Positions 3,179 through 28,790 of a DNA stretch of 44,505 bases are shown here, piece by piece. The notes beneath the pieces were generated by a model. The model saw only the letters and a program-made list of their open reading frames with translations. It made no database searches and had not been told where the DNA came from. Each line of letters starts with the position of its first letter. Positions within the stretch are counted from its first letter, which is position 1. A program made the translations under genes and the position numbers. Origin of the DNA: a virus; IMG/VR virus record IMGVR_UViG_3300037324_000041, positions 1-44,505 of that record. One strand, 5' to 3'.

Positions 3179-3865
3179 TTACGATATGTTTTTTTTCATA
3201 TATGCAGGAACAACATCTGCATTAAAATTGTTTTTTGGACTTTCAAACTTATCCTGGTTTCTAATCCAGTTGCCTGCATACTTTTTAAATCTGCCAGAAA
3301 TTACATGTTGTTCGTATGCCAAACCTTCTTGCTCAACTGTTGCTTCAAAACTTTCTACAAAAGCATCCCAAGTTTTAATTTGCTTTTTATATTGCATCAT
3401 TAAAACATCAAATTGAGATGGAAAATTTTCTTTAAAAAAAGAAAGTGAATCTCTTTCTTTATTAATTGTATTATTAATTGTAATACTCTCATATATTGAC
3501 GTGCGTTTTTCCGCAATAGGTGTTGCGTTTTTTGACAATACCTCTTGTGTTTTTCCGCAATAGGTATTGCGCTTTTTCGCAATAGGTATTTTGATGTTTT
3601 GAACTAAGAATATTTTACGAGTATTTCCATTTTTTTTATCTAATTGAGTCCTAATATGATTGCATTTTTCTAGTAAAGAAATCCATCTAGAAATGGTCCA
3701 AACATTAACGTTGTACAAATCTGCGAAATAACTATTTTCTGACCAGCAATAACCCTCTGATGTACACAATGCAGATATTTCACCATAAAGCAATTTCGCA
3801 TTAGGATTTAAATTAACATCGTATCTTACAGACGCAGGAATAACTGCATAATAGTTTGGCTGCAT
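3179..3865 (-). CDS. Phage replication initiator with HTH domain
   Basis: A 228-residue protein. Residues 1-105 form a winged-helix domain of the HTH_36 kind (YYAVIPASVRYDVNLNPNAK, then NSYFADLYNVNVWTISRWIS), as in phage and plasmid initiators. The centre (about 90-125) is Lys-rich and encoded by four 22-bp DNA repeats. The C-terminal part (WDAFVESFEATV through FKKYAGNWIRNQDK) resembles the helicase-loader end of DnaD/lambda O-type proteins. The next gene is dnaB, so it probably binds its own iterons and loads DnaB. The start ATG overlaps the stop of 3865-4305 (TAATG). Confidence 0.7.
   Translation of the reverse strand: MQPNYYAVIPASVRYDVNLNPNAKLLYGEISALCTSEGYCWSENSYFADLYNVNVWTISRWISLLEKCNHIRTQLDKKNGNTRKIFLVQNIKIPIAKKRNTYCGKTQEVLSKNATPIAEKRTSIYESITINNTINKERDSLSFFKENFPSQFDVLMMQYKKQIKTWDAFVESFEATVEQEGLAYEQHVISGRFKKYAGNWIRNQDKFESPKNNFNADVVPAYMKKNIS
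3503..3590. repeat. Four abutting 22-bp iterons, candidate phage origin
   Basis: Units at 3503-3524, 3525-3546, 3547-3568 and 3569-3590. Units 1, 3 and 4 share TTTTTCCGCAATAGGT or a near variant (unit 4 has CTTTTTCGCAATAGGT). Unit 2 keeps GCGTTTTTT but diverges to GACAATACCTCTT. The 22-bp period is not a multiple of three, so the repeat is conserved at DNA level, not as a protein repeat. Iterons inside the initiator gene are the arrangement of the lambda origin in gene O. Confidence 0.7.
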
Positions 3866-7129: not shown

Positions 7130-8353
7130 ACGATCTACACATTCAAAACTACTTATAATTTTAAATAACGCTTCATCTCGCATTTTTTCAGGGTATTTAT
7201 CTTTATAATAATTATCAATATCGTTTCTTTCATGGCCCATTAATTCACGTATAACGTCAGTATCCACCAACATATTTTTGGCAATATTAGCAAAGGTATG
7301 GCGAGCCACTTTTACCCCTAAATTTCCGCCAAGCGGTTTTATTTCAATTTCTAATTCGCTTTGTGCTGCAGCAATGTGTCGCCTGTAATTTACTCCAAAA
7401 CTTATATAACTAGCTTTATCTTTTTTAAACGGAAATAAATATTCGTCAGTTCCGCCAGAATATTTATCAAAAATTGCTTTTGCTTTTGGATGTATTTTTA
7501 AATCAATAAGCAATTCGGTACTAGTTTTTATTCTTTCAAAAAATATTCTATTTTTTTTTATATAATGCTTTTTAAAATAATAAACATCTACCAAATCACA
7601 TCCTCCAAGGTAAAATGACAATAGCCAAAAATCTAAATAAAAACGCTGTTTTTTACTAACATTTGCAGTTTCTAAAATATATATATCACTTTTAGAAATA
7701 TACTTTTTTCGGCTATTATAACTTTTAGAAGATAATCCGGCACAAACGCCTTTAAAAGGATTTTTATCTACAAGGGCATATTTCTGAATTCCCTGGTTAT
7801 AGATTGATTGAAGTATTTTTAAATAAATTTGCACCGTACTTTTTTTATTTCCGATGCTTTGTCGGTGATTTTTAAACCGAAATAAAACTTCTGATTCTAA
7901 GGTGTCAAGAAAGCAATTTGGCGCAAATATTTTAAACTGGTTAATTACGGCATTGTACGTTTTTATGTTTCCTAAAATTTTATTTTGCGATCTTAAATCG
8001 TTAATTTTCGCAAAATTATCAGATGTATTTTTCATTTCCTGGACAAGTTTTGTAGCATGATCAATAAATTTCATTTTGTCCATACTTTCAGAAAATAATT
8101 CGTTCATAAGATTATCTACATCTATTGCGCCGTTCAAAATTAATTTTCTAACTTTGATTTTCATATCCAAAATTTTTGGCGCCAAAATATCATAATCGGG
8201 ATGTTTGTCCGTAATCATTTCAGTTTCTAAATTAAAATGCTTTTTGCTGCATTCCCAAATATCTTTTTGCCTTCTTGCATTTTTATGAGCTATTTTTAGG
8301 TATAAAACAGAATTCCTATTTGGTTCTATTCTTAATTTAAAATGATATGTCAT
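7112..8353 (-). CDS. int: Tyrosine-type site-specific integrase
   Basis: A 413-residue phage integrase of the Bacteroidetes type: N-terminal arm-binding region (1-100), SAM-like core-binding domain (about 100-220), and a catalytic domain with ARHTFANIAKN near 352, LMGHERNDIDNYY and the nucleophile Tyr near 384-385. Arg I is not at its usual place (YLGGCDLVDV instead of an Arg-containing motif) and the HxxR His is Lys (KVAR). It faces the repressor convergently and is the outermost gene of the left phage, so attP should lie in 8354-8586. Confidence 0.88.
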   Translation of the reverse strand: MTYHFKLRIEPNRNSVLYLKIAHKNARRQKDIWECSKKHFNLETEMITDKHPDYDILAPKILDMKIKVRKLILNGAIDVDNLMNELFSESMDKMKFIDHATKLVQEMKNTSDNFAKINDLRSQNKILGNIKTYNAVINQFKIFAPNCFLDTLESEVLFRFKNHRQSIGNKKSTVQIYLKILQSIYNQGIQKYALVDKNPFKGVCAGLSSKSYNSRKKYISKSDIYILETANVSKKQRFYLDFWLLSFYLGGCDLVDVYYFKKHYIKKNRIFFERIKTSTELLIDLKIHPKAKAIFDKYSGGTDEYLFPFKKDKASYISFGVNYRRHIAAAQSELEIEIKPLGGNLGVKVARHTFANIAKNMLVDTDVIRELMGHERNDIDNYYKDKYPEKMRDEALFKIISSFECVDRSPFIE

Positions 8354-8586: not shown

Positions 8587-8784
8587 TTAAATACTAAAAG
8601 GAACTACAATTAAAGAATTTATTTCTTTTTTTAAAAACATGATTTCTGACTGTACTTTACCCAACTGGGTAAATAGTTTGTCATTTACTTCGAATAACGA
8701 TTCGATGTTTGCGAATATTCGTGCTTTTTTAAGCAGTAATTCTTGCAGCTTTGTATTTAGTTGCTTTTGAAGAATTGTATCCAT
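8587..8784 (-). CDS. Small coiled-coil protein after the lysis cassette
   Basis: A 65-residue, almost wholly helical protein (LNTKLQELLLKKARIFANIE, then LGKVQSEIMFLKKEINSLIV) with heptad-like spacing. Its ATG lies inside the 3' end of the spanin gene (28-base overlap), so it is probably coupled to it. It is the final gene of the middle phage's leftward late operon. Function unknown. Confidence 0.5.
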   Translation of the reverse strand: MDTILQKQLNTKLQELLLKKARIFANIESLFEVNDKLFTQLGKVQSEIMFLKKEINSLIVVPFSI

Positions 8785-9305
8785 TTTGTTCGATATTTAT
8801 AAATGATAACAGCAATGATTAAAATTAAAAATCCTAAAAAATAAATAATAATCGGAATTCCATATCGGTCCACTTCTTTATTTTTTTCTTTGGCTTTTGT
8901 GGCTACTTTTTTTTCTTCGTTAAATTTTATGTTTAATTCAGAATCAATTTTATTTTGCTCTTGCACTATTTTACTTTCTGCTGTAGTAGTTTTTTTATTT
9001 TTCTTTTTTAGTGTTCCAGAACCTTTATATTTTAAACCACCAAGGCTTTTACCTTTGCTGTCAAATTTTTCTATAATTAAAGAATCACCTGGTTTAATTT
9101 CTACTTCAAATTCATCTTCTTCTACTTCCGATTTTGAATCTGTTGCTTCCGTTTTTTTTTGATCTACCTTTATAATTTCGGTTGTGTTTTGTTCTGTATT
9201 TTTAACCTTATTAGTTTCGGTTTTGCTTTCTTGCTTATTCTTTTTTAAGGAAGAACAGCTTAATAAAAAGAAAGAAAATATTAGTATTATTAATTTTGTT
9301 TTCAT
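8757..9305 (-). CDS. Unimolecular spanin (lipoprotein with C-terminal TM)
   Basis: A 182-residue protein with an N-terminal lipoprotein signal (FSFFLLSCSS, lipobox Cys near 17) and one C-terminal membrane helix (IPIIIYFLGFLILIIAVIIY, about 150-170), separated by a Lys/Glu-rich helical linker. One chain anchored in both outer and inner membranes is the definition of a u-spanin (as T1 gp11), which fuses the membranes in the last lysis step. It follows the endolysin and holin genes directly, which fits. Primary sequence is not conserved among spanins, so the call rests on architecture and position. Confidence 0.75.
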   Translation of the reverse strand: MKTKLIILIFSFFLLSCSSLKKNKQESKTETNKVKNTEQNTTEIIKVDQKKTEATDSKSEVEEDEFEVEIKPGDSLIIEKFDSKGKSLGGLKYKGSGTLKKKNKKTTTAESKIVQEQNKIDSELNIKFNEEKKVATKAKEKNKEVDRYGIPIIIYFLGFLILIIAVIIYKYRTKWIQFFKSN

Positions 9306-12141: not shown

Positions 12142-12696
12142 CTATTGAAAAATATAATTGTTATCGTTTTGGAAAATATAGTTTGTACTATCGTTAAAAA
12201 TATAGTTAAATCCGTCAAAAATTATCAAACTTGTATTTATTAAATTATTACAAAAAGGTGCAATGTTTTCTTCTTGCCCACTAAATGAAATGTTATAAGT
12301 TTGGTTTGTGGTTATTGTTAAAGTTTCACTTTCTACTCCGTTTCTAAAACCCATTAAAAAAAAGTTGTCGTTATAATCTTCAACTACTATAAAATAATCT
12401 TTCTTTAAAAGTTTGCTAAAATTAACATTATCAAACGCACTTATTTTACTAAAATTCAAAGATAAACTTTGATTATAAGACTTACCACCGTCTGTAATTT
12501 GTTGCGATTGCGAGAAAGTACTTGCACCAAGCATTTCAAACTTATAAATAAACGTTTGAGGAAAACCAGTTAACTCCACACCATCATAAGCTATGTTTGA
12601 ACGCGTTACTTTTTTGTAAGGCGCTAAATAAACAGACTTAACACCACCAATTGAATTTTTGCATTGCTTATTTCGTCCGTTAGTAATTTCTTTCAT
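12142..12696 (-). CDS. Structural protein, paralogue of 15353-15871
   Basis: A 184-residue protein beginning KEITNGRNKQCKNSIGGVKS, closely matching the start of the protein at 15353 (CDITNGRKKQCKNAIAGTSK). Both continue with VYL, a mid-region with FxYxxxG and SQS, a Thr-rich strand and FxLxGxxxGVE. The pair probably shares a fold used in the virion tail or connector. Its start overlaps the end of 12680-13243 by 17 bases. The C-terminus repeats NYIFxxD three times (YNYIFNDSTNYIFQNDNNYI). Confidence 0.55.
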   Translation of the reverse strand: MKEITNGRNKQCKNSIGGVKSVYLAPYKKVTRSNIAYDGVELTGFPQTFIYKFEMLGASTFSQSQQITDGGKSYNQSLSLNFSKISAFDNVNFSKLLKKDYFIVVEDYNDNFFLMGFRNGVESETLTITTNQTYNISFSGQEENIAPFCNNLINTSLIIFDGFNYIFNDSTNYIFQNDNNYIFQ

Positions 12697-13248: not shown

Positions 13249-14946
13249 CTAGTTAAATCTTTTATTTGATGGCAAAAATCCATTGAAAGGCATATCTTTT
13301 GGCGCTGTATAAACTAATTTATCATTTGCTGGCAATATTTCGCCCTCTTTTCTTGCTTGTGCTGGCGTTATTTTCTCTGCTAAAGGGCTATTTACGTCTG
13401 ATTTTAGCCTATAAGTTTCCCGAATCCAAGAATGATGGCAGCCTCCACCGCCTTTATAAAGCCAAATATCGTAATTATCAGCACCTTTTGCTCCCCAACC
13501 CGAGTTAACAGACGATTTACTCATTCTGTCTATGTCTTGCTTGCGATATAGCTTGTTTGCCCCTACCATTTTACTGCAAAACTCTCTACTATTTGCATTC
13601 AAACCACTACTATATCTGTAACGGCTCTTAAATAGCTTACCATCTTGCTTTGGGTTTGTAGTTGTATCTTTTGCGTTAGGGTTTGCCGTTCCAGTGCTTG
13701 CAAATTGTATGTTATGACCCGCTATAATCTTGTCTAGTTCGTCTTCGTCCTCATACTCAACTTTTCTACTATCTACTAAATCATAACCTTGCAAATCGCT
13801 TTCTAAACTATCTAAAATCTCATCTAGTGTTGACTTTTTTTTTTCTTCGCTTAGTTGAGTTGGCATTGCAGTATCTTGCACCTCTGAAAGTGGTTTGAAA
13901 TAAAAATCAAATGCCATATTATTAAATGAAATTATCTCATCAATAGCTTCTATAATCGGAAATTGTTTTGGCGCAATAACGCGCTTTAAAAGCTGTGATT
14001 CCGCTTCGTCAAGTTCGTTTGCGTTATTACCTAAACCCGTATTATCTTTAATTCCCGCTAACATTGGAGAAGTTAAAAAATGCCCCGTCATTATTTGTTG
14101 GCGTGCCTCATTGCTTAAAAACTCCCATTGCTTATGCATAGATTCGTTTACAGGAAACGCCGTAATAGTAATTTCTGAATCTTTACTAGCAAAATTTAAA
14201 ACAAATTTACCAGCGTTAGGCGAACCCGTTAATTTAGCTTTTATTTGACGCTCGAAACTATCCTTTTCTTCTGCCGTTAACGTTTGACCGTCTGGCACGT
14301 TTATAAGATAACCAGCTGATAATCCGTTCAGTAAAAAGTTATTATAAAAGTTACTAATTTCCTCCTCTATGTTTGCAAATTGTAATGCGGGCAAGTAACT
14401 TGGATCTGAGAAGTAATTTTTACCCGCTGAGTAAGGTTTGATGCAGTATATTTCCGATTCATCGTTAGAGGTACCAAAAGCGCTAAATTGCTCAGCTAAT
14501 TTTGGTTTAGTCCAATCCTTATTATAAAAATAGTGTTCAATTTCGCCCTCCTCGTTTTCTAAACTAGGAACTACATACTGCTTAGGCAAATGAAATATAC
14601 CCGTTACTTTTTTACGGTCTTTTGATTTAATAACTTGTACGCTAGCCTCTCCGAATAGTTGAAAGTCACTAACTATTTTACGTAAATCTTTGCTATTTAA
14701 TATGGTTTTGAAATTCGCCCATTCAGTTGGCTTGCTACTTGCATTTTTTGCAAACAACCCTTGTCCGTAAATTAAATGAGTGTATGCTGTTATAATAGAA
14801 TGGTTTGTTACGCTTCCATTAAACCTATCTATAATGTATTGGTAAAAACTATTGTTAACGCCGTTTAAAACCCAGTTTTTAGATTTATTTTCTTGCAATA
14901 CGGGTTTAACGTAGTTGTTTAGTTGTATTAATTTTATTTCGCTCAT
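13249..14946 (-). CDS. Portal protein with C-terminal minor-head-like extension
   Basis: A 565-residue protein. Residues 1-380 follow the portal pattern: an N-terminal region with LIYGQGLFAKN (near 64), a wing with LFGEASVQVI and FHLPKQYVVP, and a stem/clip with SNEARQQIMTGHFLTSPMLA. After an acidic linker (380-430), residues 440-510 form a separate unit (RYRYSSGLNANSREFCSKMV, then YDIWLYKGGGGCHHSWIRE) with Cys/His residues that recalls the end domain of phage head-morphogenesis proteins. Portal forms the dodecameric DNA gate. The gene follows the capsid genes rather than the terminase. Confidence 0.72.
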   Translation of the reverse strand: MSEIKLIQLNNYVKPVLQENKSKNWVLNGVNNSFYQYIIDRFNGSVTNHSIITAYTHLIYGQGLFAKNASSKPTEWANFKTILNSKDLRKIVSDFQLFGEASVQVIKSKDRKKVTGIFHLPKQYVVPSLENEEGEIEHYFYNKDWTKPKLAEQFSAFGTSNDESEIYCIKPYSAGKNYFSDPSYLPALQFANIEEEISNFYNNFLLNGLSAGYLINVPDGQTLTAEEKDSFERQIKAKLTGSPNAGKFVLNFASKDSEITITAFPVNESMHKQWEFLSNEARQQIMTGHFLTSPMLAGIKDNTGLGNNANELDEAESQLLKRVIAPKQFPIIEAIDEIISFNNMAFDFYFKPLSEVQDTAMPTQLSEEKKKSTLDEILDSLESDLQGYDLVDSRKVEYEDEDELDKIIAGHNIQFASTGTANPNAKDTTTNPKQDGKLFKSRYRYSSGLNANSREFCSKMVGANKLYRKQDIDRMSKSSVNSGWGAKGADNYDIWLYKGGGGCHHSWIRETYRLKSDVNSPLAEKITPAQARKEGEILPANDKLVYTAPKDMPFNGFLPSNKRFN

Positions 14947-15352: not shown

Positions 15353-15871
15353 TTATGTCGTTGGGTTTACTACTGCTAAAAATGCTGTAATAGTCGCGCT
15401 ATCTAGTAAAGGCGCTAATTCTGTTTCAATAGAAGTACCTGTTAAGTTATAACCGTTGAAGTCTGCTTTTGCGCCTCCCGTAGTTGGTGCAACTAAAAAA
15501 TCAATTCCTTCTTTCAAACCTACTAAATGATAGTTTCCAGCTTTGTCTTGAACAACCGCTTTAGGGTATCCATAGGCTAATAAATTCAATTGGTGGTTGT
15601 CCTCTTTAGTTGTTTTTGGCAAAACTAAAGTTAATGTTTGGGTGTTTGTAGTTGTACCAGCGTTTCTGTCAGATGCTAATGACTGAGCAAAAATGTTTCC
15701 ATCGCCTATTAAATCATATTGAAATACGTCTACTAAAAGCGGATTCATTGCCGTAGCTACGCCGTTTAAAATTGTGAAAGGATTTTCAATGTCGTTAAAT
15801 AGATACACCTTTGAAGTACCCGCTATCGCATTTTTACATTGCTTTTTACGACCGTTCGTTATATCGCACAT
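15353..15871 (-). CDS. Structural protein, paralogue of 12142-12696
   Basis: A 172-residue protein immediately after the major capsid gene. The N-terminus shares TNGRxKQCKNxIxG with the 12142 protein. The mid-part has YDLIGDGNIFAQSLASDRN and LTLVLPKTTKEDNHQLNLLA; the end is Thr/Ala-rich. Placed directly behind the capsid gene and flanked by terminators, it is probably an abundant virion protein such as a tail tube or capsid accessory subunit; the sequence does not settle which. Confidence 0.55.
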   Translation of the reverse strand: MCDITNGRKKQCKNAIAGTSKVYLFNDIENPFTILNGVATAMNPLLVDVFQYDLIGDGNIFAQSLASDRNAGTTTNTQTLTLVLPKTTKEDNHQLNLLAYGYPKAVVQDKAGNYHLVGLKEGIDFLVAPTTGGAKADFNGYNLTGTSIETELAPLLDSATITAFLAVVNPTT

Positions 15872-18821: not shown

Positions 18822-20456
18822 TTAAAATTTACTATTTGATATTATATTACGCTCTAACGCTTGAGCGGTGGTAACATTTGAACTAACCACAAACGCTTGT
18901 ATTGGTTGGTTTTGACCTCCTAAACTAGACGCTATTTGATTTGCTCCCGTTCCTTGAACTAAATTAAAAGACGGTGCAGATGGTGCTTGTTGACCGCCGC
19001 CGCCGCCAGTATTTGAACTTGGTGGAGTTGAGCCGCCAGCCTTGGTACTTAATATTTTTTTAATTTGTATTGCAGAAAACGCCCCAGCAAGACCAGCTTG
19101 AATTAATGGATAAGCGGGAAATAAAGTAGTGATAGGAGATTTTTGTGCTGTTGTATAAGCATTTTGCACACCCTCGTAACCCGCAATAGTTGCTTGTGCC
19201 ACTGCTGTTGCTTTTCCTATTTTAGAACCTCTTCCAGCAAGTTCTCCGATTAGATTTAAAGTGTTGTTTGCCAAACCTATTTTAGCATCTTTAACCGCTG
19301 TCGCTCTAATTATTTCGTCCGCAGCCGCCTTGTCATCTATTGCTTTTTTATCTGCTGCAGCCTTATCGTCAATTATTTTTTTATCCGCAATTTCCTTATC
19401 TTTAATTTCTTTTTTATTTCTAGCAAATTGCGCTTCTAGTTCTACTGTTGAAACATTATTATCTACTAATATTTTTCTTTCTTGCTCAAACTTTGCCGTT
19501 AAATTTTGTAACGCGGTTCTTGTTTTTTGCAAGTTATCTTCTCTCGCATCGTCCTCAATTTTATTTGCTTTATCTAAAGCGGCTTTTCTTGCGTCCTCAA
19601 TTGCTTTTCTTTTTGCTTTTGCTATTGCATCTGCTTTCTCTTGTAATGCCTTTCTTTTATCGTTTATAGACTTATTGTCAGCGTCTATTTTATCTTGCGC
19701 TTCTTTGTTATCTTTTACTTTTTTATCGTTTCTCTGTTTGTCTATAGCAATTAAATCTCTGTTTAATCTTTTAGCTAATTCATTTCTTTTTTCGTCTGTA
19801 ATGTCTTGCTCTAAAACCGCTTCGTTGTATCTGTTTTTAGCTTCTATTTTTTTCTTTGTAAACTCATCTAATAGGTCACCTCTAGTTTGCATATAATCTT
19901 TGTTTAATTTTAAAGATTTTTTTGCACGCTCGTTAAATTTATCTAACTCCCTTTCTGCTTCCGAAGTTATACCTATAAAATCAGTAACCGCATTAGATAC
20001 CGTTCTAAAGAAATCGCCAACTAATTTAAGCCCGGGCAAAAACTTTGTAACAGCATCAGTTATTTTTCCAAAGTTCAAAACTAAAGAAACTAACGCCAAA
20101 ATAATTAAACCAATTCCAGTACCAGCTAGAGCAAGTTTAAAAAGTTTCATTGCTCCCGTAGATGTGCCAACAACAAAACTATAGGCAGATTGTAAAGCGG
20201 TTGCAAGTTTAGATTCTTTAGAAAACAATCCAAGTGCCTCTACTGAATCTTTACCTACTTGAGCGTAACCACCCGTAACTGCATTTAGTAAACCCATTGC
20301 GCCGCCGTTTTCCAAAACCGATACTGAACTTTCCTTCATTCCTTTTGCAACTCCTGACGTGCTTTTTTTCAAGGTGTTTAAAGAATTATCTAGCTTGTCA
20401 ATCTTACGGTTTGCGTCGCTTGTATCTGCTACAACTTTTATTACTTCTGTAATCAT
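18822..20456 (-). CDS. Tail tape measure protein
   Basis: A 544-residue protein. N-terminal IKVVADTSDANRKIDKLDNS and a Gly/Ala-rich region to about 100; one membrane-like segment (FKLALAGTGIGLIILALVSL) near 105-125; a long charged coiled coil (about 170-390) rich in KAxxDxK repeats; a second weakly hydrophobic part (PLIQAGLAGAFSAIQIKKIL); and a flexible Gly/Gln/Pro end. This is the tape-measure pattern: it sets tail length and travels through the tail to the membrane. It is short for a tape measure (lambda gpH 853), suggesting a short siphovirus tail. Confidence 0.85.
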   Translation of the reverse strand: MITEVIKVVADTSDANRKIDKLDNSLNTLKKSTSGVAKGMKESSVSVLENGGAMGLLNAVTGGYAQVGKDSVEALGLFSKESKLATALQSAYSFVVGTSTGAMKLFKLALAGTGIGLIILALVSLVLNFGKITDAVTKFLPGLKLVGDFFRTVSNAVTDFIGITSEAERELDKFNERAKKSLKLNKDYMQTRGDLLDEFTKKKIEAKNRYNEAVLEQDITDEKRNELAKRLNRDLIAIDKQRNDKKVKDNKEAQDKIDADNKSINDKRKALQEKADAIAKAKRKAIEDARKAALDKANKIEDDAREDNLQKTRTALQNLTAKFEQERKILVDNNVSTVELEAQFARNKKEIKDKEIADKKIIDDKAAADKKAIDDKAAADEIIRATAVKDAKIGLANNTLNLIGELAGRGSKIGKATAVAQATIAGYEGVQNAYTTAQKSPITTLFPAYPLIQAGLAGAFSAIQIKKILSTKAGGSTPPSSNTGGGGGQQAPSAPSFNLVQGTGANQIASSLGGQNQPIQAFVVSSNVTTAQALERNIISNSKF

Positions 20457-26672: not shown

Positions 26673-26699
26673 AATTTCTATTTGTTTGTTTCTATGGTG

Positions 26700-26729
26700 T
26701 AAAGATACAACCAACATTTGAATAAACAA
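26700..26729 (-). promoter_or_regulatory. Leftward promoter with extended -33 motif
   Basis: Minus strand: AAAGTATTGTTTATT with TTG at 26727-26729, a 19-base spacer, TATCTTTA at 26700-26707. It lies just after the terminator of the G/GT unit and serves 26672-26150. Confidence 0.75.
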
Positions 26730-26762
26730 TACTTTATTTAAAAAACTTTTAATTTATTTTAG

Positions 26763-26804
26763 AAAAAACCGCCTAAGTGTGCATTGTTAAGAGGCAAAGG
26801 CGGT
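26763..26804 (-). terminator. Intrinsic terminator after the tail chaperone genes
   Basis: On the minus strand ACCGCCT pairs with AGGCGGT (26798-26804 with 26768-26774) across a 23-base loop, followed by T-rich sequence. It ends the terminase and chaperone transcript and isolates the next two genes. Confidence 0.65.
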
Positions 26805-26824
26805 GTATTAAACAATAGTTTATT

Positions 26825-27576
26825 TTACAATTCGGTTATTTGCTTACCGTTAGATTTATTCTGAGCACTTATGATTGCTTTATTTTCCACCACCTCGCAA
26901 CTCAAAAATAACAAACATTTATGCAAACTTAGTTGAGTTACTTTATCAATCGCAAAGATATCGTCTTTAGCTAACTTCTTAATAGTAGGATACCATCCCC
27001 AATCTTTAAAGTAATTTGCCATTTCATCTCCCTCGCTTATTCCACGTTCAAATATTTCAGGGTATAATCCTCTAACTCGTTGGCTAAATTCAAAAAAAAA
27101 ACCAGCGCGCCATTAGCAATATTTAAAGGCATCGATTTCATTCGTTCTGCATATTCCGCAGTACCTTTGTAACTTTCTATTTCATACCTACCGTGTGCTT
27201 TATTTCTTATCGGTCGGAATAGTATAGCCATTAGATTATGTAAATCATTTTGGCTTGTTTGGTATTTCTCTAGGTCTGCAAACTCTCCTAAACTTATTTC
27301 CTCAAAGTCATTTATAAATCCAAATTCTAAACCATCTAATTTAAAGGTAGCTTGAAATTTTGCATCTGTATTTAACGCAATATCTACTTGCTTACTTATA
27401 CGCTCAAAGTCAATAGCTTTTAAGCTGCCTAAATCTTTGTGAGGTATGTTTGTAAAGATTGATACTTTACGTTTGTTAAAATTCATTATATCCAAGTCGC
27501 GCTCTAGTAATTCCATATACTTTTGAAACTGCCCTAATGTAACCTCGCTAATATTTTCTGGTATGTTTATTTTCAT
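26825..27576 (-). CDS. Tail assembly chaperone GT, made by -1 frameshift
   Basis: A ten-T run on the minus strand (27092-27101) near the end of gene G allows the T TTT TTT slip. After a -1 shift the frame stays open for about 90 codons through FEFSQRVRGLYPEIFERGIS, then NYFKDWGWYPTIKKLAKDDI and IDKVTQLSLHKCLLFLSCE, stopping at 26825. The product is about 250 residues. The T extension with WGWY..I..LA is a recurring signature of tail chaperone C-termini. The isolated frame 26825-27022 also has its own ATG, but the uninterrupted -1 frame favours frameshift expression. In lambda, GT recruits the tape measure. Confidence 0.8.
27037..27576 (-). CDS. Tail assembly chaperone G
   Basis: A 179-residue protein starting MKINIPENISEVTLGQFQKY, helical, with FINDFEEISLGEFADLEKYQ near 110 and HNLMAILFRPIRNKAHGRYE near 132, ending ALVFFLNLANELEDYTLKYL. 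This is the pattern of Bacteroidetes phage G-type chaperones that keep the tape measure soluble. It lies immediately after TerL, apart from the main tail block. The slippery T-run is 55 bases before its stop. Confidence 0.72.
   Translation of the reverse strand: MKINIPENISEVTLGQFQKYMELLERDLDIMNFNKRKVSIFTNIPHKDLGSLKAIDFERISKQVDIALNTDAKFQATFKLDGLEFGFINDFEEISLGEFADLEKYQTSQNDLHNLMAILFRPIRNKAHGRYEIESYKGTAEYAERMKSMPLNIANGALVFFLNLANELEDYTLKYLNVE
27092..27101 (-). promoter_or_regulatory. Programmed -1 frameshift site (poly-T)
   Basis: Ten consecutive Ts on the minus strand, read GTT TTT TTT TTG in frame 0. Any T TTT TTT heptamer there can slip -1, and the -1 frame has no stop until 26825. A G/GT pair joined by a slip near the end of the first frame is conserved in dsDNA phage tails. 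Confidence 0.8.
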
Positions 27577-27578
27577 AA

Positions 27579-28790
27579 TTATCTTATATCAAATTTTCCT
27601 CTATGTGGGTTACTTAAATGAAAGAACACATTGTATCTTATTGCGTCGATTGCGTGATTCCAATTATCCACAAACAAACTACTTGCTTTATCGCTGTATA
27701 CGTAGTTGTTTAACTCCTTAGCTACATTAACGCTTTCTTTATCTATTACTAACTGATAGTCACGCATTAGCTCAATACCAGCCTTAATACTTCCAGCACC
27801 TTTTTCGGTTGCCTGTATGTTAAATCCGTATCGTTGTATTTCTTCTATTAATCTAGGCTCTGCACTATCCGCAATTATTAATTCTTTGCCCGATACATTT
27901 TGTTTGTAGATCATTGCCAACTCGCTTGTTGTTAACTTTGGCTTGTATAACAATTCTTTAACGTATATTATTTTTAACTTACGATCTATTGCTACTTTAA
28001 CTAATGTGCTAGGGTCAATACTAAATCCAAAATCCGCACCAAAGGAATAAGGTAGAGTAGTATCAAACTCTCCAAACTTCCAATTTGTAAATACAACACC
28101 TTCCGCTTTGTCTAACCAGCCACCTAGTATTTGATGTTCGTACTTCTTAGGGTTGTTTTCTTTGATTAATTCTATTTCGTTAATAAAATCTGTATTAAGA
28201 TTATCTAAGTTGTTTAGGTACGTTGTATGTATGTAGGTCGTGTTACCTTTAACGCCGTTAAATCCTTCCGTTACTCCAGCCTCTTCAAAAAACTTTCTAT
28301 AAATCCAATGCTCTTTTGTTGCTGGATTAAGTATAAGTATAATTCTATTCTGTTTATTTTTAATTCTGATAGATAAATTTATCTTATCAAAAGTACTTTC
28401 ATCTGTCAACTCTTCTGCTTCATCTAACACCCAAGTGGTAACGCCCGTAATCGATTTTAAGTTAGCCGTCTGGTCCCCCGAACTTGTTTTAATACCTCTA
28501 AAGATTATCTCGCTGTTTGTTTGCTTATTCTTTATTTCTGTTTTATTTACGTCAAAAACATAATTCATTTCAAGTAAGTCTATTTTCTCTTGAAACTCTG
28601 GTATAACTGACAAGTGCGCAGAAGTCATTGTTTGTCTAGTGTATAGTATTTTATGCCCTGACTCAAAAGATAGTAGACTTGTAAACCTACCTACTTCAAA
28701 TGACTTGCCAGAACCACGCCCACCAGTAACAACAAAGTATCTAGTATCATTACTTAAACTATTCCAAATCGGTTTTTGTTTGGCTATCAT
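27579..28790 (-). CDS. terL: Terminase large subunit, PBSX type
   Basis: A 403-residue packaging ATPase-nuclease. Walker A GRGSGKS at 24-30; the motor Arg region ILYTRQTMTSAHLSVIPEFQ; Walker B TWVLDEAEEL near 117-126; coupling motif IILILNPATKEHWIYRKFF; nuclease acidic residues FGADFGFSIDPSTLV (near 250), LIIADSAEPRLI, and a final NHAIDAIRYNVF. It belongs to the PBSX/phage_term_2 group. Its ATG overlaps the end of TerS by 32 bases. It converts ATP energy into DNA packaging and cuts the concatemer. Confidence 0.92.
   Translation of the reverse strand: MIAKQKPIWNSLSNDTRYFVVTGGRGSGKSFEVGRFTSLLSFESGHKILYTRQTMTSAHLSVIPEFQEKIDLLEMNYVFDVNKTEIKNKQTNSEIIFRGIKTSSGDQTANLKSITGVTTWVLDEAEELTDESTFDKINLSIRIKNKQNRIILILNPATKEHWIYRKFFEEAGVTEGFNGVKGNTTYIHTTYLNNLDNLNTDFINEIELIKENNPKKYEHQILGGWLDKAEGVVFTNWKFGEFDTTLPYSFGADFGFSIDPSTLVKVAIDRKLKIIYVKELLYKPKLTTSELAMIYKQNVSGKELIIADSAEPRLIEEIQRYGFNIQATEKGAGSIKAGIELMRDYQLVIDKESVNVAKELNNYVYSDKASSLFVDNWNHAIDAIRYNVFFHLSNPHRGKFDIR

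Follow-up and report, generated by a model that had tools for sequence, protein, structure and literature searches.

In the 44,505-nt stretch of viral DNA analysed here (IMG/VR virus record IMGVR_UViG_3300037324_000041, positions 1 to 44,505; hereafter the window), a gene directly behind the large terminase gene carries ten consecutive Ts near its end and is followed by a short open reading frame (ORF) in another frame, raising the question of whether the two are expressed as one protein and, if so, whether the ribosome or RNA polymerase slips. The window is a 44.5-kb virus record with a G+C content of 30.7%, in which integrase, large terminase, portal and protease were identified by family search, and by DNA the annotated phages closest to it are those that infect the flavobacteria Nonlabens, Riemerella and Cellulophaga. 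The features of the locus are as follows.

27037–27576, minus strand: G, the frame-0 product, 179 aa, a probable tail assembly chaperone of PHROG 32199 (function unassigned), supported by an AlphaFold model (pLDDT 88) and homologues.
27092–27101, minus strand: T10 slip run with the in-register heptamer T_TTT_TTT; homologous loci have T9–T11 in 341 of 342 cases and T8 in one.
26825–27091, minus strand: T extension, coding in the −1 frame with a WGWY motif, which together with G gives the 250-aa GT; supported by third-position variation and a helical model (pLDDT 80).
26825–27022, minus strand: apparent separate 65-aa ORF from the ORF listing, part of T, with an ATG at 27022 that is not conserved as a start codon in the family.
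27579–28790, minus strand: large terminase subunit, directly upstream of G (PHROG 2, E 2.5e-49).
18822–20456, minus strand: tape-measure-like gene, which matches PHROG 9483 'tail length tape measure protein' over residues 267–495 (E 1.1e-9) and lies ~6.4 kb downstream of T in the same direction.

Specifically, the ten Ts occupy 27101 to 27092 of the minus strand, where frame 0 reads CTG GTT TTT TTT TTG AAT, and the G stop codon (27039–27037) starts 52 nt past the run (55 nt including the stop). From 27112 onward, the −1 frame stays open past the G stop as far as its own stop at 26825–26827, and slipping by −1 on the run yields a 250-aa product of 161 frame-0 codons followed by 89 codons of the −1 frame. 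The run is the only coding-strand run of at least nine Ts inside any gene of the window. These positions bear out the original prediction of a −1 join, which placed ten Ts on the G coding strand 55 bases from the stop, with the −1 frame open through that stop. The WGWY..I..LA motif that it pointed out is present as WGWYPTIKKLA and is typical of the T part in this family.

To assemble homologues, viral contigs and genome contigs were searched with profiles of G only, which are blind to the run, yielding 342 usable loci. Some of these share a contig, and together they comprise 311 different junctions, or 158 clusters when grouped at 80% protein identity. The T part, detected with its own HMM in 343 loci, lies in the −1 frame relative to G in all 343. 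At the junction, 283 of the 342 loci have T9 and 57 have T10, and T11 and T8 occur once each. An independent scan from the T side recovered 80 loci, all of them −1 and all T9. G and T never share a frame or stand in the +1 relation (0/343 from the G side and 0/80 from the T side), indicating that the run does not drift by insertions and deletions. Homologues with a broken T-run and both frames kept were looked for among the 342 loci, and the proposed join of the two ORFs came through strongly supported, as both the −1 relation and the run recur in the 342 homologous junctions. We regard the −1 recoding as real and clade-wide with near certainty.

Frame 0 continues 150–260 nt beyond the run in many relatives. 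In 95% of clusters, the +1 frame is closed by a stop no more than 30 nt past the run, with a median distance of 6 nt; a message lacking one T would accordingly yield a third, short form of G. Furthermore, several BFVD proteins of about 220–267 aa match both the G and the T models, and these are probably in-frame G–T fusions in more distant phages. At one locus (L332), the G frame breaks 16 codons after the start of the match while T is intact, perhaps through a contig error.

The heptamer T_TTT_TTT is in register at every family site, as it must be in any T9 run regardless of phase. When the heptamer is anchored on one and the same Phe codon pair, the Ts before and after it number mostly 1+1 or 1+2, with 2+0 in 23 clusters and 0+2 in 8. 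Across the aligned junctions, Ts absent on one side of T_TTT_TTT are made up on the other, and what is conserved is the total run length, beyond the ribosomal heptamer. In particular, runs of at least nine Ts are found in 157 of 158 clusters; a shorter run occurs in a single cluster, against 25.8 expected with shuffled flanks and a minimum of 16 in 10,000 shuffles. The Leu codon that follows the two Phe codons behaves in the same way, being TTG or TTA in 16 of 16 cases with at most one T before the heptamer and CTN in 6 of 6 cases with at least two. As read from these codons, the same residue is encoded under a different nucleotide need, although the contrast also alters the −1-frame residue (F versus S).

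On the tree, the count of Ts preceding the heptamer changed at least 16 times. Of the six independent, supported pairs that bear on flank compensation, about five are in agreement and no pair points the other way (median p 0.06); the phylogenetic support for compensation is therefore suggestive rather than conclusive. Trade-offs at the protein level ([VLI]FF[YWSCLF] versus FFF[VIL]) could explain part of the compensation, but the Leu codon contrast argues otherwise.

Long runs are scarce elsewhere in these phages. The 30 chance in-register T_TTT_TTT sites found elsewhere in the same contigs have run lengths of 7 (27 sites) or 8 (3 sites) and never 9. Sense ORFs of at least 100 aa contain three runs of at least nine Ts in 496 kb, and in non-overlapping ORFs such T runs number 0 against 5.5 expected, and A runs of at least nine number 5 against 40 expected. 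The window itself has three coding-strand A runs of this length: an A10 at 13835–13844 in the portal gene, an A9 at 7551–7559 in the integrase gene and an A9 at 9152–9160 in the ORF at 8757–9305. These runs, which are of a type strongly depleted in related phages, could give slipped transcripts.

Two machines could read such a run in the −1 frame. Slippage mainly by RNA polymerase is, from the sequence evidence, moderately favoured over slippage by the ribosome, because run length is conserved, the flanks compensate, runs of at least nine Ts are avoided elsewhere, no nested RNA structure accompanies the site and published slippage data point the same way. Nested RNA structure was found neither downstream nor upstream of the run (mean z 0.01 and −0.05, ~157 sequences), in a test that covered nested folds. 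In bacteria, the onset length of selection against A/T runs is commonly nine (PMC1088944), and Escherichia coli polymerase slips at about 5–10% already on T7/T8 (PMC6260861). Weighing against the polymerase is one lineage, L130, with T8. Its run (3470–3486, TTTTTTTTCTCTTTT) is the only T8 in the family and makes it a natural test case for a length threshold.

The serious rival is classical ribosomal −1 frameshifting on T_TTT_TTT, in which a pair of Phe-tRNAs shifts back by one base and pairs again, as happens at known G/GT joints, and in which the extra Ts raise efficiency or follow from protein needs. We rate it as a substantial possibility, though somewhat improbable as the main process. The in-register heptamer is present in every family member, and since every T9 holds it, ribosomal slippage is possible at all sites, which speaks against a polymerase-only reading. 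Furthermore, lambda and many tail chaperones are known to work by ribosomal −1 shifting (PMC5009743), and reporter tests in an HK97-like chaperone cluster gave 6–7% (PMC3711429). This mechanism, however, would not lead one to expect that Ts before the heptamer can stand in for Ts after it, or that runs of 7–8 are nearly absent. It would also have to act without a nested stimulatory structure, a feature that is common though not universal downstream of such sites, and on U_UUU_UUU, at which E. coli ribosomes slip only weakly (PMC5009743). Both polymerase and ribosome may act. The predicted "programmed frameshift" thus holds as recoding at the run; its ribosomal sense fares less well, since what the family conserves is nine or more Ts in total, which points to RNA-polymerase slippage.

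A reading that needs no slippage makes T a separate 65-aa gene started at the ATG at 27022. The ORF does have this ATG, and the related Nonlabens phages are annotated with two genes. However, the T-run is conserved exactly at the junction, an ATG in the −1 frame between the run and WGWY is found in only 20 of 106 loci, and the −1 frame is under selection upstream of the ATG, inside G. Specifically, in the window's close group, 48 of 65 variable sites upstream of the run fall at frame-0 third positions, whereas −1-frame third positions account for 5 of the 7 variable sites within the overlap, for 15 of the 16 beyond the G stop, and for both of the two between the G stop and the ATG. Pairwise codon differences in the overlap are 28 nonsynonymous versus 295 synonymous in the −1 frame and 367 versus 100 in frame 0, and the trend is repeated in a further group of 30 loci whose overlap is longer. 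Judging from these differences, it is at the run that selection changes over to the −1 frame, before the ATG at 27022 is reached. This signature upstream of the ATG, together with the rarity of the ATG, excludes a separate T gene as a general rule and leaves it very improbable here; the second part looks like a separate 65-residue gene, as originally noted, but its start codon is not conserved among homologues.

Phase variation can act through long homopolymers, which are also prone to error. That the run is a sequencing error or a phase-variable switch, with the true gene being one ORF or flipping by replication slippage (both properties of long runs are discussed in PMC3711429), is scarcely credible and is excluded as a general explanation, since no locus from either search has the two parts in another frame relation, the −1 relation is kept despite differences in run length, and the independent isolate genomes of Nonlabens phages P12024S and P12024L show the same arrangement.

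Comparison of homologues establishes the joint, its −1 direction, its conservation and −1-frame selection from the run onward. In the mechanism that we propose, the T-run is a programmed recoding site, at which the majority of messages would yield G (179 aa) and a minority GT (250 aa), with T replacing the final residues of G. Host RNA polymerase copying at least nine Ts would add one U or drop two, and ordinary translation of the slipped message would produce GT. By analogy to lambda G/GT, G would coat the tape-measure protein and T would recruit tail-tube subunits during tail assembly. We give even weight to the broader proposal that, in a large clade of Bacteroidetes tailed phages, the long form of the tail chaperone is made through programmed polymerase slippage on T9–T10, not by the ribosome, such that host transcription would set the G:GT ratio.

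That G and GT are a tail assembly chaperone is quite likely, given the G/GT architecture, the neighbourhood and the analogy to lambda (PMC5009743). G/GT sits directly behind the terminase and upstream of the tape-measure-like gene, with about nine genes in between, and a terminase match lies upstream of G in 299 of 333 loci, so that synteny is conserved. Among 353 solved-structure chains, the HK97 tail assembly chaperone (2ob9) ranks first as a match to the G model, with a Z of only 3.3 over 64 residues; the T model is a small helical domain (pLDDT 80). Searches of G and T against Pfam and NCBIfam gave nothing usable, HK97 gp13 showed no relation to the G profile, and Foldseek against the PDB returned nothing at E <1 for G and nothing for T. 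The T profile had no matches among solved-structure sequences. The "tail chaperones G and GT" of the original prediction are a probable role read from architecture and neighbourhood: no Pfam or NCBIfam family applies, the PHROGs, including PHROG 38404 for the T extension in relatives, are function-unassigned, and the HK97 chaperone fold match is weak.

The G of one homologue (L058) matches PHROG 166 'tail protein' (E 5e-4), and the reading of PHROG 166 as the HK97 family was rejected, the HK97 chaperone not being in it. The G profile against solved-structure sequences gave chance matches only (chitinase-like proteins, E 0.05 or worse).

Several observations concern the surroundings of the locus. 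Just after T, at 26690–26830, an inverted repeat (accgcc...ggcggt) precedes a stretch of Ts and by eye looks like a terminator; after those Ts comes TATCTTTAC, resembling a Bacteroidetes −7 box. A consensus scan called no terminator at this hairpin-plus-T, and a scan for sigma-70 promoters and terminators was uninformative. The proteins encoded at 12142–12696 and 15353–15871, which flank the portal gene on either side, both match PHROG 19091 (function unassigned) and are probable paralogues. Among the relatives, the 33-kb contig IMGVR_UViG_3300037862_000061 has a G gene at both ends (L014 and L019), which suggests that the genome of this close relative is complete and either circularly permuted or circularised.

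The arrangement resembles lambda gpG/gpGT and HK97 gp13/gp14, in which a short and a C-terminally extended protein arise via a −1 joint close to where the first ORF ends, and it appears to share with them a small helical T part and a tail-region neighbourhood. Lambda-type pairs lie between the major tail protein and tape-measure genes, and their G is in excess over GT, both being required for tail assembly and absent from the virion. The present arrangement has no detectable sequence homology to those systems, its gene lies directly after the terminase rather than adjacent to the tape-measure-like gene, and its site is a length-conserved T9–T10 run rather than a bare heptamer. In the latter respect, it resembles transcriptional slippage cassettes (Thermus dnaX A9, insertion-sequence transposases and Shigella mxiE), where a length-conserved A or T run of at least nine joins two frames and runs of at least nine are avoided elsewhere (PMC1088944); it differs from them in having a run of T instead of A, in a phage gene of probable assembly function.

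Homologues with 28% identity, the same post-terminase order and a T9 in the same place are encoded by Nonlabens phages P12024S (genes 38/39) and P12024L (genes 40/41). Both pairs are annotated as two hypothetical proteins with no frameshift noted. In the open literature, to which the search was confined (subscription papers lay outside its scope), no report was found of recoding in this family or of polymerase slippage in a tail chaperone. Vladimirov et al. is cited in the reference list of PRFect.

The locus thus represents G/GT-type recoding in an unannotated family, and this recoding is, from the pattern of the runs, probably transcriptional. Tail-chaperone recoding is usually treated as textbook ribosomal frameshifting; here, an unannotated family in hundreds of phages conserves run length, the hallmark of polymerase slippage. 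A run of at least nine Ts late in the gene that follows the terminase provides an annotation marker for a gene pair that is now filed as two hypothetical proteins. If the polymerase reading is true, one assembly problem would be solved by transcription in one phage clade and by translation in others, as with dnaX in Thermus and E. coli.
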